A stretch of DNA of 64,000 bases from Catellatospora sp. IY07-71 (GTDB lineage Bacteria; Actinomycetota; Actinomycetes; Mycobacteriales; Micromonosporaceae). Positions within the stretch are counted from its first letter, which is position 1, and every line of letters begins with the position of its first letter. Below are positions 40,450-45,799 of the stretch, piece by piece. The translations under genes and the position numbers were made by a program. The notes beneath the pieces were generated by a model. The model was not told the DNA's origin and made no database searches. It saw only the letters and a list, made by a program, of their open reading frames with translations. The DNA is taken from positions 1,479,501-1,543,500 of the forward strand of contig NZ_AP023360.1 of the NCBI RefSeq assembly GCF_018326265.1. Reading direction: 5' to 3'.

Positions 40450-41481
40450 ATGTCGGAACTGTCGAACCCGGGCCTGGCGGAAGCCGGGCTGCTGGACGAG
40501 CCCACCACCGCGGACCTGCATGCGAAGGTCGCCGAGGCGTGGCGTGACTTCGCGCGGGCGCTGGCCGGGGTGCTGCCCGCGCTGCCCGTCGGCGCCGAGC
40601 TGGAGCTGGCGCTCGACCCGACCGCCTCCGGCACCGGCTCGGCGGTGTACGGGGTGAGCGTGGAGCACCTCGCCGACGGCACCCTGCAGGCGCGCGCGGT
40701 CAGCAACGCGAATCTGCCCGAGGGCTTCCGGCTGGAGCGGCCCGCGATCGCCGCGATGGTCGCGCTGGGCTGGTCGCCGCCCGGCGTGGTGGCCGGCTCG
40801 CGGGAGAACTTCGGCATGACCGGCGCGCCGGACGCGCTGGCCGGGATCATCACCCGCACGCTGCGCGACGTGTACGGCGCGCCGCACCCGGCGTTCCTCG
40901 TCTACGAGGCGCACGACCAGGAGGAGGAGCCGGTCGCCGTCGAGCCGCTGGCCACCGCCCGGCACGAGTCCATGGTGGACGCGTTCCTGCCGTCCATCGA
41001 CTCCCTGGACGCCAGCGGGCTGGACCTGGCCGACCGGGTGCGCATCGTGGTGTCCGCGATGCTGAAGACCGACCCGGACGCGCTGCAGGTGGACGGCGAC
41101 GGCGACATCGGCATCCGGGCCGGGTCGGCGATGGTGTTCGTCCGGGTGCGCGACGAGCCGCCGCTGATCGACGTGTTCTCGCCGGTGCTGACCGACATCG
41201 AGCCGGGCGAGAAGCTGTTCGTGAAGCTGTCCGAGCTGACCAACCGGATGCCGATCGGCCGGCTCTACTGCACCTCGGGCACCGTGTGGGCCTCGATCCC
41301 GGTGTTCGGCCGCGACTTCCAGGCCAGCCACCTGGCGCTGGCGATCCAGGTGATGACCGGCCTGGCCGACGAGCTGGACGACCGGCTGCACGGCGAGTTC
41401 GGCGGCAAGCGCTTCTTCGGCGAGGGCGACAAGCCCGCGATCACCCCGCCGTCCGAGACCCGCATCGGCCAGTACCTCTGA
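40450..41481 (+). CDS. YbjN/type III chaperone-like protein ending in the proteasome motif GQYL
   Basis: A 343-residue protein with two alpha/beta parts of the YbjN/CesT chaperone-like fold, the second clearest around IDVFSPVLTDIEPGEKLF and LYCTSGTVWASIPVFG. The first 40 residues are helical. The last ten residues, PSETRIGQYL, end in GQYL, the C-terminal motif with which actinobacterial proteasome activators such as Bpa/PafE and Mpa dock onto the 20S core. Bpa itself is encoded 4 kb downstream and ends TGQYL. The ATG follows GAGGAGG. It may be a second adaptor or activator that feeds proteins to the proteasome; this role is inferred from the tail only. Confidence 0.72.
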   Translation: MSELSNPGLAEAGLLDEPTTADLHAKVAEAWRDFARALAGVLPALPVGAELELALDPTASGTGSAVYGVSVEHLADGTLQARAVSNANLPEGFRLERPAIAAMVALGWSPPGVVAGSRENFGMTGAPDALAGIITRTLRDVYGAPHPAFLVYEAHDQEEEPVAVEPLATARHESMVDAFLPSIDSLDASGLDLADRVRIVVSAMLKTDPDALQVDGDGDIGIRAGSAMVFVRVRDEPPLIDVFSPVLTDIEPGEKLFVKLSELTNRMPIGRLYCTSGTVWASIPVFGRDFQASHLALAIQVMTGLADELDDRLHGEFGGKRFFGEGDKPAITPPSETRIGQYL

Positions 41482-41555: not shown

Positions 41556-43385
41556 TTAGAGCAGCACCCGCGCCAGGGCCGGGCCGGGGGCCGCCAGCGG
41601 GGTCGCCACGGCGACCGTGTCGCCGACGACCCAGAGGGTGTCGCCGACCACCAGGGAACGCCGCGGATAGCTGAGCTCGGCCCGGCTCACCTCGCCGATC
41701 TTCTCCAGGCGGTCGTCGCCCACCCGGTAGACCAGCGCGCCCGCCCGCTGCCCGCCGTCGTACGCCATGTACGGCACGACCAGCATCCGGGTGTCCGGCC
41801 AGTACAGGAACGCGTGCGGGTCCTGCTCGGCCTCGCTCCAGCCGTGCGGGATCTTCTGCTGGTCGAGGCGCCTAGGGTCGGCCCCGCCGACGTCGAACAG
41901 CGACACCTGCAGGCCGGTGGTCCTGCCCTGCTCGGTGGCGTCCTGCCCGACGCCGAGCAGCCGCCCGCCGTCCAGCGGGTGCAGGTAGCTGCTGAAACCC
42001 GGGATCTTCAGCTCACCGGTGAGGCGTGGGTGTGCCGGGTCGCGCAGGTCCACCGCGTAGAGCGGGTCGGTCTGCCGGAAGGTCACCACGTAGCCGGTGG
42101 GCCCGAGGAAGCGCACCGCGTAGATGCGCTCGCCCTTGCCCAGCCCGCCCAGCTTGCCGAGCTGCCGCAGCTGCCCGCCGTCGCGGCGCAGCGTGTACAC
42201 GGTGGACTCGCTGCTCGGCTGGCCGCCCCACGGCTGACCCGTGGTGGTGGCGGCCCGCAGCACCCCGTCGTGCTCGCTGAGCGAGTACTGGTTGAGCAGC
42301 CAGCCCGGCACGCTGCCGGAGGCGGCGAAGACCGGCCGCGGCCCGGTCACGTCGAACATGTACAGCTCGGTGCGGCCGAGTGCCTGGTCGCCGCGCCAGC
42401 GCTCGTCGTGGGCCAGGTAGAGGTGCGGGCCGCTGCCGTAGACGGTGTTCGCGTCGGCCAGCACGCCCACCGGCGCGCCGTCGCCGAGCGACCGCCCGGC
42501 CGCGAGGTCGAAGCTGAGCACGGTCACCGTGGCGGTGCCGCTGAACCGGTCCGGCCGGCTGACGTCGCCGCAGTCCAGCCGCCCGGCGACCCCTTCACTG
42601 GTGTACGCGGGCAGCCACTTCTCCAGCGGCGCCTGGTCGATCAGCTTCCGGTTGGCGGCGATGCGCTCGGAGTCGGTGAGCTTGTCGCGCCACGGGAAGT
42701 CGATGAGCGGGTGCGAGGTCACCACGACCCGCGCGACCCCGCCGACCATCCGCGCGTCGGTCAGCTCGGCGCCGATCTCGTAGGAGCCGGTGACCTTCGG
42801 CACGCCGGTCAGGTCCACCTGGCGCACCCGGGTGGCGGACATGCCGGGCCGCATGCGGGCGCTGTCGACCAGCCCTCGCGTCGCCGGGAGACCCCAGCTC
42901 GCGGTCAGCACCAGCGCCCGGTCACCCTGCAGGAGGAGCTGGTGCGAGCCGGGTCCCAGGTGCAGCGAGCCGGTCGCCTGCCGGGAGGCCGCGTCGATGA
43001 CCCGCAGCGTCTCACCGAGCACGGTCACGATGCGGCGGCCGTCGGTCTTGACGATGTCCGGCTCGTCGACCCCGGCCTCGTGGGTGTTCGTGCCGGAGTA
43101 CGCGGGAGCGGCCTTGTCGTACAGCGCTTGCGGGCCCCCTGCCGCCCGCATCGCGCTGTCCGCGGCCAAGAAGCGGCCGCCCTGATAGAAGCCCCAGGGC
43201 TGCACCGCCTGCTTGGCGGCGGCGCGGACCGACTTGAGCAGCTCCTCGCACGAGTCATAGGCCACCAGCCGGAACTCGGGGGCGGGCACTGGAGCCGGGT
43301 CCTTGGCCGATTGCGGCGGCTCGTCGGTCACCGTGCAGCCCGCCAGGAGCAGCAGCGCCGCCAGACACAGCACAGTTCGTCTCAT
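41556..43385 (-). CDS. Beta-propeller lipoprotein
   Basis: A 609-residue lipoprotein with signal peptide and lipobox LAGC. The conserved block YSGTNTHEAGVDEPDIVKTDG and the repeated strands that follow (for example MFDVTGPRPVFAASGSVPG and AVDLRDPAHPRLTGELKI) identify the secreted family with a C-terminal beta-propeller distantly related to WD40. These proteins occur across actinobacteria and archaea; no function is established. Stands alone between hairpin-bounded genes. Confidence 0.88.
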   Translation of the reverse strand: MRRTVLCLAALLLLAGCTVTDEPPQSAKDPAPVPAPEFRLVAYDSCEELLKSVRAAAKQAVQPWGFYQGGRFLAADSAMRAAGGPQALYDKAAPAYSGTNTHEAGVDEPDIVKTDGRRIVTVLGETLRVIDAASRQATGSLHLGPGSHQLLLQGDRALVLTASWGLPATRGLVDSARMRPGMSATRVRQVDLTGVPKVTGSYEIGAELTDARMVGGVARVVVTSHPLIDFPWRDKLTDSERIAANRKLIDQAPLEKWLPAYTSEGVAGRLDCGDVSRPDRFSGTATVTVLSFDLAAGRSLGDGAPVGVLADANTVYGSGPHLYLAHDERWRGDQALGRTELYMFDVTGPRPVFAASGSVPGWLLNQYSLSEHDGVLRAATTTGQPWGGQPSSESTVYTLRRDGGQLRQLGKLGGLGKGERIYAVRFLGPTGYVVTFRQTDPLYAVDLRDPAHPRLTGELKIPGFSSYLHPLDGGRLLGVGQDATEQGRTTGLQVSLFDVGGADPRRLDQQKIPHGWSEAEQDPHAFLYWPDTRMLVVPYMAYDGGQRAGALVYRVGDDRLEKIGEVSRAELSYPRRSLVVGDTLWVVGDTVAVATPLAAPGPALARVLL

Positions 43386-43450
43386 GCCCGTCTTCGACGC
43401 GCTGGCGGGCGGTCCGGCTCCCGCCGCGCCCGTTCGCTCGTGGGACGGGC

Positions 43451-43882
43451 TCAGTCGACCAGCCGGGAGAGCACGATCATGCTGCGGGTGCTGGTGATGA
43501 AGGGCTCCGCGCGCAGCCGCTCCAGCGCCTGCTCCAGGTGGGCGATGTCGGCCGCGCGCAGGTGCACCAGCGCGTCGGCCTCCCCGGAGACGGTGTACGC
43601 CCCGACCACCTCCGGGTGGCGGCGGGTGGCCTGCGTGATCTGCGCCGGAGTGGTGCGGCCGGTGCAGAACAGCTCGACGAAGGCCTCGGTGCCGCCGCCC
43701 ACCGCCGCCGGGTCCACGACGGCGGTGAAGCCCTTGATGACGCCGCCGGAACGCAGCCGGTCGACCCGCCGCTTGACCGCCGGAGCGGACAGCGACACCA
43801 CCGAGCCGATCTCGGCGTACGTGGTGCGCGCGTCGCTCAGGAGCGCGGCGATGATCCGCTGGTCAACGTCGTCCAACTGCAC
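43451..43882 (-). CDS. Lrp/AsnC family regulator
   Basis: A 143-residue regulator with N-terminal winged helix (LDDVDQRIIAALLSDARTTYAEIG, then VSLSAPAVKRRVDRL) and a C-terminal RAM/ligand domain (EVVGAYTVSGEADALVHL). Such proteins sense amino acids as octamers. The GTG shares one base with the TAG of the substrate-binding protein gene (TAGTG), so the two are coupled; this suggests that it controls amino-acid uptake by that protein. Confidence 0.93.
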   Translation of the reverse strand: MQLDDVDQRIIAALLSDARTTYAEIGSVVSLSAPAVKRRVDRLRSGGVIKGFTAVVDPAAVGGGTEAFVELFCTGRTTPAQITQATRRHPEVVGAYTVSGEADALVHLRAADIAHLEQALERLRAEPFITSTRSMIVLSRLVD

Positions 43883-45072
43883 TACCCGAGGGTAGCGAGG
43901 TCGCTGATCAGCACGTTCGACAGGATGGGGCCGTCCTTCTCGACCTTGCGCAGGTACCACTTCTGCTGCGGCGAGCGGTTCTGGTTGAACTGCCAGTTGC
44001 CGCGCGGGCTGATCACCTGGCCGACGCTGGACAGCAGCGAGTTGATCCGCTGCGCGGTGATGGTGCCGTCCCCGGCCAGGGTGAGCGCCTGGTCCAGCAC
44101 CGCCGCCGCGTCGTAGGCGGCGACCGCGAACGCCGTGGGCGTGCGCTGGTACTTCGCCTGGAACAGCGACGAGAAGGAGTGGTTGGCCACGTTGTTCAGG
44201 TCCGCGGAGTACTGCATCGCGGTGTAGAGGCCGCGGCCGCCGTCGCCGAGCGCGTCCAGGGCGACGCCCTCGGCCACCACGCCGGGGGCGTACAGCGGCA
44301 GGCCGGCGAGGGCGCTGCCGCCGGCGTTCCGGAGCGCGTCCTTGAAGGCGTCGAGGTGCGTGCTGGGCAGGTTGCAGAAGATCGCCCGCGGGTTCTGGTT
44401 CTTGATCTGGCCGGCGGCCGCGGCGAACTCGGCCGCGGTCGGCTTGATGCCGGCGCGCACCGTGATCGGCTCCTGGAAGCCGGTGCCGTAGACCTGCTGG
44501 AAGCCGTTGAACAGCTCGGCGGTCGAGCTGCTGCTGACGCCGATCAGGCTGACCCGGCTGCCGCCCATCCGGCGGCGCAGGTAGAGCGCGATGGCGCGGG
44601 CGGGCTCGTCGCTGAGGAAGGCGGTGCGCCAGATGAAGTTGGAGCTGGGCATGCCGGCCGGGGTCGCGTGCGCGGCCAGCAGCGGGACCTTCGACTCCTC
44701 GACCTTGTCGCGGACGGCGGGCAGCAGGTCGGGGTTGGCCACCCCGGCGACGGCGAGCACGTGCTGGTCGAGCAGCCGGCCCAGGGCGTCGCCGCCGGAC
44801 TTGGGGGTCTCGCCCTCGTCCTCGACGATCACCTGCACCGGGCGGGAGCCGAGCATGCCGCCGTGCAGGTCGAGGTAGAGCCGGAAGCCGAGCTCGAGGT
44901 CGGCGCCGATGGCCTTGTTGGCTCCGGTGGCGGGGACGAGCAGACCGATGCTGACGCCGCTCCGGCTGGTCGGCGTCGAGGTGCTGCCGCAGGCAGCGAG
45001 CCCGCCGGTCGCGCCGGCGACACCGACACCGGTCAGCAGACGAAGCAGCCTGCGACGGTCAAGGCCGTCCAA
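43882..45072 (-). CDS. Branched-chain-amino-acid-type substrate-binding lipoprotein
   Basis: A 396-residue periplasmic-binding-type protein (type I, LivJ/Leu-Ile-Val fold) with SIGLLVPATGANKAIG at the start of the mature part and AAYDAAAVLDQAL near the end. The start is taken as the TTG at 45072 because GGAGG lies five bases upstream and it gives a compact signal peptide with DRRRLLRLL and lipobox LAAC, a Tat-type lipoprotein signal. Longer reading from 45168 would bury this signal. No permease or ATPase genes follow; the next gene is an Lrp regulator, so it may be a sensor component rather than part of a dedicated transporter. Confidence 0.85.
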   Translation of the reverse strand: MDGLDRRRLLRLLTGVGVAGATGGLAACGSTSTPTSRSGVSIGLLVPATGANKAIGADLELGFRLYLDLHGGMLGSRPVQVIVEDEGETPKSGGDALGRLLDQHVLAVAGVANPDLLPAVRDKVEESKVPLLAAHATPAGMPSSNFIWRTAFLSDEPARAIALYLRRRMGGSRVSLIGVSSSSTAELFNGFQQVYGTGFQEPITVRAGIKPTAAEFAAAAGQIKNQNPRAIFCNLPSTHLDAFKDALRNAGGSALAGLPLYAPGVVAEGVALDALGDGGRGLYTAMQYSADLNNVANHSFSSLFQAKYQRTPTAFAVAAYDAAAVLDQALTLAGDGTITAQRINSLLSSVGQVISPRGNWQFNQNRSPQQKWYLRKVEKDGPILSNVLISDLATLG

Positions 45073-45232
45073 TGTGTCCTCCAGAGTGGCATCGGCCGGA
45101 CGCGAATTTCGCGACCCGTCCGTCAGGGGTGACGCCGAACGATGTGGGCACGTGCTCCTTTGACCCACTGTGGCGTTCTACCGTGTCCTGGGACTCTCGT
45201 CAATGATCAACATTGTCGCTTGTCTCGGGATC

Positions 45233-45268: not shown

Positions 45269-45799
45269 GTGAGCCAGCAGCAGCCCGACGAGAAGAGCGT
45301 AGTGGTCGTCGGCCCGGACGGCCGTCCCATCGGCACCGTTGAGGTGACCGCGGACGGCGCCACCGGTCGCGAGGACGACCCGAGCCGCCTCATCGAGCAG
45401 CCCGCCAAGGTGATGCGCATCGGCAGCATGATCAAGCAGCTGCTGGAGGAGGTGCGGGCCGCGCCCCTGGACGAAGCGGGCCGGCAGCGCCTCGTGGAGA
45501 TCCACCGCCGCTCCGTGGACGAGCTGGAGGACGGCCTCTCCCCCGAGCTGCGCGACGAGCTGGAGCGCATCTCCGTGCGGTTCACCGAGGGCACCACCCC
45601 GTCGGAGGCCGAGCTGCGGATCGCGCAGGCCCAGCTGGTCGGCTGGCTGGAGGGCCTGTTCCACGGCATCCAGGCCGCGCTGGTCGCGCAGCAGATGGCC
45701 GCGCGCATGCAGCTGGAGCAGATGCGCAACATGCCCGCCCTGCCGCCGGGCGCGCACCCGGAGCCGGGCAAGACCACCAGCACCGGCCAGTACCTCTGA
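45269..45799 (+). CDS. bpa: Bacterial proteasome activator Bpa/PafE
   Basis: A 176-residue ATP-independent activator that forms dodecameric rings, docks on the 20S proteasome and lets unfolded proteins in. The helical core has IEQPAKVMRIGSMIKQLLEE, ISVRFTEG and QAQLVGWLEGLFHGIQAALV. The protein ends TGQYL, the docking motif that opens the proteasome gate. GTG start with TGAGGAGG. The proteasome genes themselves are not in the window. It is divergent from the substrate-binding gene. Confidence 0.96.
   Translation: MSQQQPDEKSVVVVGPDGRPIGTVEVTADGATGREDDPSRLIEQPAKVMRIGSMIKQLLEEVRAAPLDEAGRQRLVEIHRRSVDELEDGLSPELRDELERISVRFTEGTTPSEAELRIAQAQLVGWLEGLFHGIQAALVAQQMAARMQLEQMRNMPALPPGAHPEPGKTTSTGQYL

Follow-up and report, generated by a model that had tools for sequence, protein, structure and literature searches.

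A chaperone-like protein with a C-terminal GQYL tail is a candidate partner of the actinobacterial 20S proteasome

The gene located at 40450..41481 (+) of a 64,000-nucleotide stretch of the genome of Catellatospora sp. IY07-71 (the window) encodes a protein that unites two TY-Chap domains with a C-terminal GQYL sequence and that we regard as a candidate proteasome-docking chaperone. On balance, its features point to an ATP-independent partner of the 20S proteasome, which docks via its G-x-Y-L tail and carries a peptide-binding chaperone. Docking on the 20S particle appears probable, and the binding and delivery of clients is a tentative part of this proposal, to which we attach a likelihood somewhat below even. 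The initial annotation had described the protein as a possible adaptor or activator of the proteasome, a view that holds in part, as it is supported by the tail, its conservation, the fold and the neighbourhood of bpa, but not with respect to a strictly preserved GQYL. As activators, a 2025 review names in its accessible part Mpa, Bpa/PafE and Cpa (PMC12288473), and no description of the TY-Chap proteins, or of the GroES-like and DUF5925-AAA families discussed below, as partners of the proteasome was found in the accessible parts of the open-licence literature in PubMed Central. A chaperone-fold protein with a docking tail would add a new kind to the proteasome partners of bacteria and open the pupylation-independent delivery of substrates to direct tests, and the common tail would provide a simple rule for locating further 20S partners outside mycobacteria.

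The open reading frame starts with an ATG behind the sequence GAGGAGG and terminates with a TGA at 41479-41481. It encodes 343 residues with the C-terminus ...ETRIGQYL, and both the DNA, with the codons GGC CAG TAC CTC at 41467-41478, and its translation confirm the RIGQYL end that had been noted for this frame. Within the protein, an N-terminal TY-Chap3 domain (aa 29-150; 40534..40899, +; PF22552, E 1.7e-24, 87.2 bits) is followed by a TY-Chap1 domain (aa 192-324; 41023..41421, +; PF22551, E 1.6e-42, 144.7 bits), both of which score above the curated cut-off of 27 bits. Further towards the C-terminus, a linker (aa 325-339; 41422..41466, +), variable as judged from its sequence entropy and predicted to be disordered from its low pLDDT, connects to the putative docking tail (aa 340-343; 41467..41478, +). 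The two TY-Chap models are the sole Pfam matches of the protein at E-values up to 1, at which PF10759, the family of Bpa, was not matched, and NCBIfam yielded no family for it. The best named relative is a protein of Catellatospora bangladeshensis with 99% identity.

The relationship to type III secretion chaperones and YbjN, which had been assigned from the sequence, is borne out by the Pfam matches, by a profile search and by structural comparison. The sequence profile recovers the YbjN-like protein Tll0839 (PDB 2plg, E 3.5e-8; alignment A1), to which the TY-Chap1 region is related. An AlphaFold2 model of the monomer, based on a 40-sequence alignment, contains two domains with a mean pLDDT of 65 and a pTM of 0.56, and its residues 324-343, encompassing linker and tail, show values below 50. 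In a Foldseek search with this model, the top match is ExsC (E 7.7e-5) followed by Tll0839 (8.7e-5), and the seven matches at E <= 0.001 are ExsC chains, Tll0839 and STM2138. Weaker matches include SycH, SycN/YscB and InvB (0.001-0.002), CesT (0.01) and YbjN (0.06), with unrelated entries being intermixed from E ~0.01 onward. Collectively, these comparisons support a type III chaperone/YbjN-like fold, as judged from a model of mediocre quality. Class I type III chaperones are dimers that hold extended segments of their clients, and by analogy the two TY-Chap domains of a single chain would equal one such dimer.

The tail is conserved among relatives of the protein. A protein search of 101 relatives returned matches in 58 genomes. 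All 56 full-length orthologues, one per genome with tails read from the DNA, end in G[QM]YL, and the same is found for all of the best 80 of 189 named loci that encode a relative, with GMYL in 70 and GQYL in 10 cases, the latter originating from Catellatospora (seven) and from Catelliglobosispora, Rhizocola and Allorhizocola (one each). The count of 56 leaves aside the window's own frame (L031), two partial relatives without YL (L063, L064), one relative whose end lies beyond the available sequence (L066) and a weak match in G003. It also excludes TY-Chap1 paralogues without a YL tail (L058-L062), which are found in genomes that in addition carry the tailed protein. A single-domain relative (G069; L065), which ends in GLYL, is equally not part of the 56 orthologues and was used in alignment A1. 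The two sets overlap and, when pooled, comprise 136 loci with 110 distinct C-terminal 150-mers. In these 110 sequences, the G, Y and L of the tail show zero entropy despite being encoded by four, two and four synonymous codons, respectively, and position -3 is occupied by M in 97 and by Q in 13 cases. The linker positions -8 to -16 display an entropy of 2.1-3.3 bits, a variation that is inflated by shifts in linker length since positions were counted ungapped from the C-terminus. The expectation that a terminal GQYL would be retained beyond a variable linker was thus correct with respect to G-x-Y-L and the linker but not to the Q, which outside of the Catellatospora group is usually replaced to give GMYL. 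An R at -6 (98/110) and a T at -5 (88/110) are also kept, and part of the conservation may therefore concern something beyond GxYL. In the 30-sequence alignment A1, which extends down to 23% identity, Y342 and L343 are among six invariant columns, in part by choice, since a YL end was the reason for including the five rows of lowest similarity, and we consequently place weight on the unselected sets of 56 genomes and 80 loci. Three rows of a further alignment, A2 (L202, L207, L230), stop ahead of the tail, and its Y and L counts do not enter this assessment.

A comparison of eight genes in the same loci revealed an invariant G..YL end preceded by a variable approach of about 2 bits only in the TY-Chap gene and in bpa. 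Other genes also have preferred ends, such as LLSR in the HAD gene (64/75) and ATLG in the substrate-binding gene (53/59), but there the upstream stretch is conserved too. From this pattern of sequence conservation we conclude that the tail is kept by selection. It is highly improbable that it would be fortuitous or a functionless legacy of common descent, an explanation that draws on the fact that most of the orthologues read belong to one family but that is difficult to reconcile with G, Y and L remaining invariant across synonymous codon change beside a hypervariable linker, with bpa as the only one of seven neighbouring genes to behave likewise and with the YL kept by some relatives in other actinobacterial families.

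The gene of the known proteasome activator Bpa/PafE is found at 45269..45799 (+) of the window. Its assignment is confirmed by a match to PF10759 (E 1.3e-72), and its product ends in STGQYL, in line with the TGQYL reported initially. Located between the TY-Chap gene and bpa are three genes of opposite orientation (41556..45168, -), which by their appearance encode a beta-propeller lipoprotein, an Lrp/AsnC-like regulator and an ABC-type substrate-binding protein. These opposite-strand genes rule out a TY-Chap/bpa operon in the window, and their homologues are present or absent depending on the locus and on the opposite strand wherever found. The proximity to bpa emphasized in the initial annotation is supported within the Micromonosporaceae. 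In 35 of 57 genomes bpa is found at most 8 kb from the TY-Chap gene, in 32 of these on the same strand and downstream, and in the other 22 genomes both genes are placed on different contigs (15) or far apart on one contig (7). Similarly, bpa is located downstream on the same strand at a distance of 0.2-6.6 kb in 75 of the best 80 of 189 named loci, and in the five loci where it was not seen the sequence covers just 1.2-6.0 kb downstream. Much of this linkage may simply reflect synteny inside a single family. With respect to the activators themselves, bpa was detected in 59 of 61 genomes, and its product ends in GQYL in 28 of 30 tails read, with GPYL in two, and in all 75 of the named loci, whereas the Mpa tails read end in GQYL throughout (28/28). 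The two GPYL ends were found in genomes G117 and G264 (L103, L109), where Mpa ends in GQYL and the TY-Chap relatives in GGYL.

Among more distant relatives, the tail is a property of a minority. Of 393 genomes sampled from the class, 54 contain matches to TY-Chap1, and of the 66 listed matches whose ends were read 12 end in YL, one each in 12 genomes, whereas the remaining 54 have other C-terminal sequences or a stop shortly past the domain. The YL ends comprise four in the window's own family (GQYL/GMYL), GGYL in five genomes of three families, SPYL in two genomes and GLYL in one. The proteins ending in SPYL (L093, L095; in G326 and G251) contain a single TY-Chap1 domain, and their genomes, which encode the 20S proteasome and Mpa, are the two without a match to bpa. 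Two further frames of the sample (L090, L092) carry an in-frame TGA within the match. As to the 20S proteasome, two matches to PF00227 are present in all 57 genomes that contain either one of the 56 orthologues or the single-domain relative of G069, and PF00227 is also found in all 12 genomes with a YL-tailed TY-Chap1 protein. Tailed proteins occur in 12 of the 48 20S-positive compared to none of the six 20S-negative TY-Chap1 genomes, a difference that is not significant (p = 0.32). The proteasome is common in this class (309/393 genomes), and its co-occurrence consequently discriminates little, so that the finding of no homologue in a proteasome-free genome among the 57, a case that had been named as evidence against the proposal, is a weak test of it.

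A G-x-Y-L end is a rare property in the host genome, which consists of a single contig of 8.6 Mb. When the entire genome was scanned for GQYL directly ahead of a TAA or TGA stop, three matches emerged, namely the TY-Chap frame, Bpa and the Mpa/ARC ATPase, compared to none for the reversed control pattern. A wider scan for GxYL, which included TAG, retrieved no additional GQYL in the genome and 23 places altogether, a count that is not comparable with the reversed control as the stop was coded as TRR, which also fits the Trp codon TGG. Only matches with true stops were thus used, of which there are six besides the three GQYL. Four of these are frames of 7-146 residues, and the other two match Pfam families, namely a GroES-like (Cpn10) protein of 113 residues ending in TGLYL (E 3.7e-16; L161:1504-1842, G000:C1:1021562-1021900, -) and a DUF5925-AAA ATPase ending in TGCYL (E 5e-66; L170:1504-2601, G000:C1:3962343-3963440, -), both located outside of the window. 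Five unrelated families of one genome hence end in G-x-Y-L, two of which are known ligands of the 20S proteasome.

Tails of this kind recur in both additional families. In case of the GroES-like protein, all 79 distinct loci read, mostly the best-scoring ones, end in G[LM]YL (78 GLYL, one GMYL). With E-values up to 1e-15, genomes containing PF00227 encode it in 228 of 309 cases compared to 2 of 84 for those without (Fisher 1e-35, uncorrected for relatedness), and tails were read in 35 of these 230 genomes. The two exceptions (L374, L375; G105, G108) are draft assemblies split into 230 and 480 contigs, which keep TGLYL and where no match to PF00227 was found. GroES forms a seven-fold ring and so does the alpha-ring of the proteasome. 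As judged from these sequences, the GroES-like protein is a possible class-wide partner of the proteasome. The DUF5925-AAA ATPase is present in 37 of 101 relatives, and among 33 frames read of 42 matches 30 end in GxYL, with C, Y, H, L, F, Q, A or M at position -3, one in GLYI and two lack such a tail. Its sequence looks like that of another tail-bearing AAA candidate.

It is conceivable that the tail of the TY-Chap protein would be recognized by a different receptor, for instance as C-degron or as self-interaction motif, and that its likeness to the tail of Mpa and Bpa would be coincidental. The GroES-like proteins that carry the same tail in the two drafts would be in line with such a scenario, which we nevertheless consider improbable, given that G-x-Y-L is common to five unrelated families of one genome including two known 20S ligands and that the fixation of G, Y and L with freedom at -3 is what the accessible parts of the literature report for docking to the 20S proteasome (PMC6017811, PMC12288473). 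We see an even chance that G-x-Y-L serves the actinobacterial proteasome as a docking code of general scope, which would be used by Mpa, Bpa and at least three unrelated undescribed families, comprising the TY-Chap proteins, the class-wide GroES-like protein and the DUF5925-AAA ATPase. If true, the bacterial 20S proteasome would employ interchangeable chaperone-type caps, some of them ATP-independent, akin to the eukaryotic set. When genes with HbYX ends were sought in the genome of M. tuberculosis, Bpa was among the four found, as described in the part of the source available (PMC4254994). In our sample, the family taken to hold Mycobacterium (f8) includes six genomes with a TY-Chap1 match, none of which ends in YL, and one genome with a GroES-like match. 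Among the relatives searched for the DUF5925-AAA ATPase, one f8 genome encodes such a protein ending in GMYL. The sampled Mycobacterium-like genomes thus mostly lack the tailed TY-Chap and GroES-like proteins, which would explain why these were missed in mycobacterial searches.

The site that would receive the tail is preserved in the host. Its PrcA (L378) contains Arg26 and Lys52 in a region that aligns without gaps to the PrcA of PDB 3h6f, and in the accessible account of the interaction with Bpa these alpha-subunit residues contact Tyr173 and Leu174 of the activator (PMC11953334). The Q of GQYL is described as dispensable for docking (PMC6017811, PMC12288473; as far as accessible), with which the free choice at -3, where Q, M, L, G and P are seen, is in agreement. 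We envisage that the last four residues of the TY-Chap protein, at the end of a flexible linker spanning some 15-22 residues, would enter the same inter-subunit pockets of the alpha-ring that are used by Mpa and Bpa, with the penultimate Tyr residing near Arg26 and the terminal Leu at Lys52 of the alpha subunit. The two TY-Chap domains, in their likeness to a dimer of type III secretion chaperones, could hold unfolded or disordered protein segments, and such clients would be kept tethered next to the gate once the protein is docked on the alpha-ring. If the protein oligomerizes, it might, akin to Bpa, achieve gate opening independently of ATP. With a single tail on each chain, a monomeric or dimeric form would bind more weakly than the hexameric Mpa or the dodecameric Bpa.

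A docked chaperone could also serve other purposes. It might act in assembly or quality control, with its tail holding immature alpha-rings or half-proteasomes and leaving upon completion of the 20S particle, as known for eukaryotic Pba1-Pba2. Such a role would suit a tail-bearing chaperone without ATPase domain, which contains two chaperone-like domains in one chain, and HbYX tails are reported for PAC1 and archaeal Pba proteins in the accessible part of the pertinent study (PMC3605417). We still regard it as unlikely in light of the absence of Pba/PAC-titled entries among 50 listed of 1257 Foldseek hits, obtained with a weak model and led by type III chaperones, and of the description, in the same source, of archaeal PbaB as binding the mature 20S and acting as an activator (PMC3605417). 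The lack of a match in 43 of the 101 relatives, counted regardless of their 20S status, indicates that the TY-Chap protein is not a core factor and renders a need for it in assembly doubtful. Alternatively, the protein might compete with the activators by filling the pockets of the alpha-ring while the gate stays shut, to tune the access of Mpa and Bpa. In favour of such a role, the tail is identical to those of both activators in one genome, and according to the accessible part of the 2025 review nothing is known on how the association of activators with the 20S proteasome is regulated (PMC12288473). However, a pure competitor would not require a two-domain peptide-binding chaperone, and we hold this possibility to be distinctly unlikely. 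ATP-independent delivery of clients remains our preferred reading because of the peptide-binding chaperone domain and since the nearest analogue, PbaB, combines the roles of chaperone and activator by means of an HbYX tail.

The TY-Chap protein shares features with several known systems without being equivalent to any of them. Bpa/PafE (the Rv3780 family, PF10759) resembles it by carrying GQYL on a flexible linker, by the absence of an ATPase and by the chromosomal linkage of both genes in the Micromonosporaceae, but Bpa is a dodecameric ring of four-helix subunits and its family is not matched by the TY-Chap protein. The proteasomal ATPase Mpa/ARC also ends in TGQYL, yet it is a Pup-recognizing AAA hexamer that has no domain in common with the TY-Chap protein. 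Cpa, the actinobacterial Cdc48-like protein, is comparable as a later-found interactor of the bacterial 20S proteasome but is, in the accessible descriptions, an AAA ATPase without GQYL tail (PMC6017811, PMC8223512). The same TY-Chap1 and TY-Chap3 domains occur in proteins of ADP-ribose-linked conflict systems, where they are predicted to be peptide-binding chaperones and where, in contrast, they are described as parts of these conflict systems with the proteasome being unmentioned in the accessible part of the source (PMC9503650). A parallel is finally provided by PbaB, a Pba/PAC homologue that is described, in the part of the study available, as an ATP-independent activator and chaperone docking via a C-terminal HbYX motif (PMC3605417), and which, unlike the TY-Chap protein, is archaeal.
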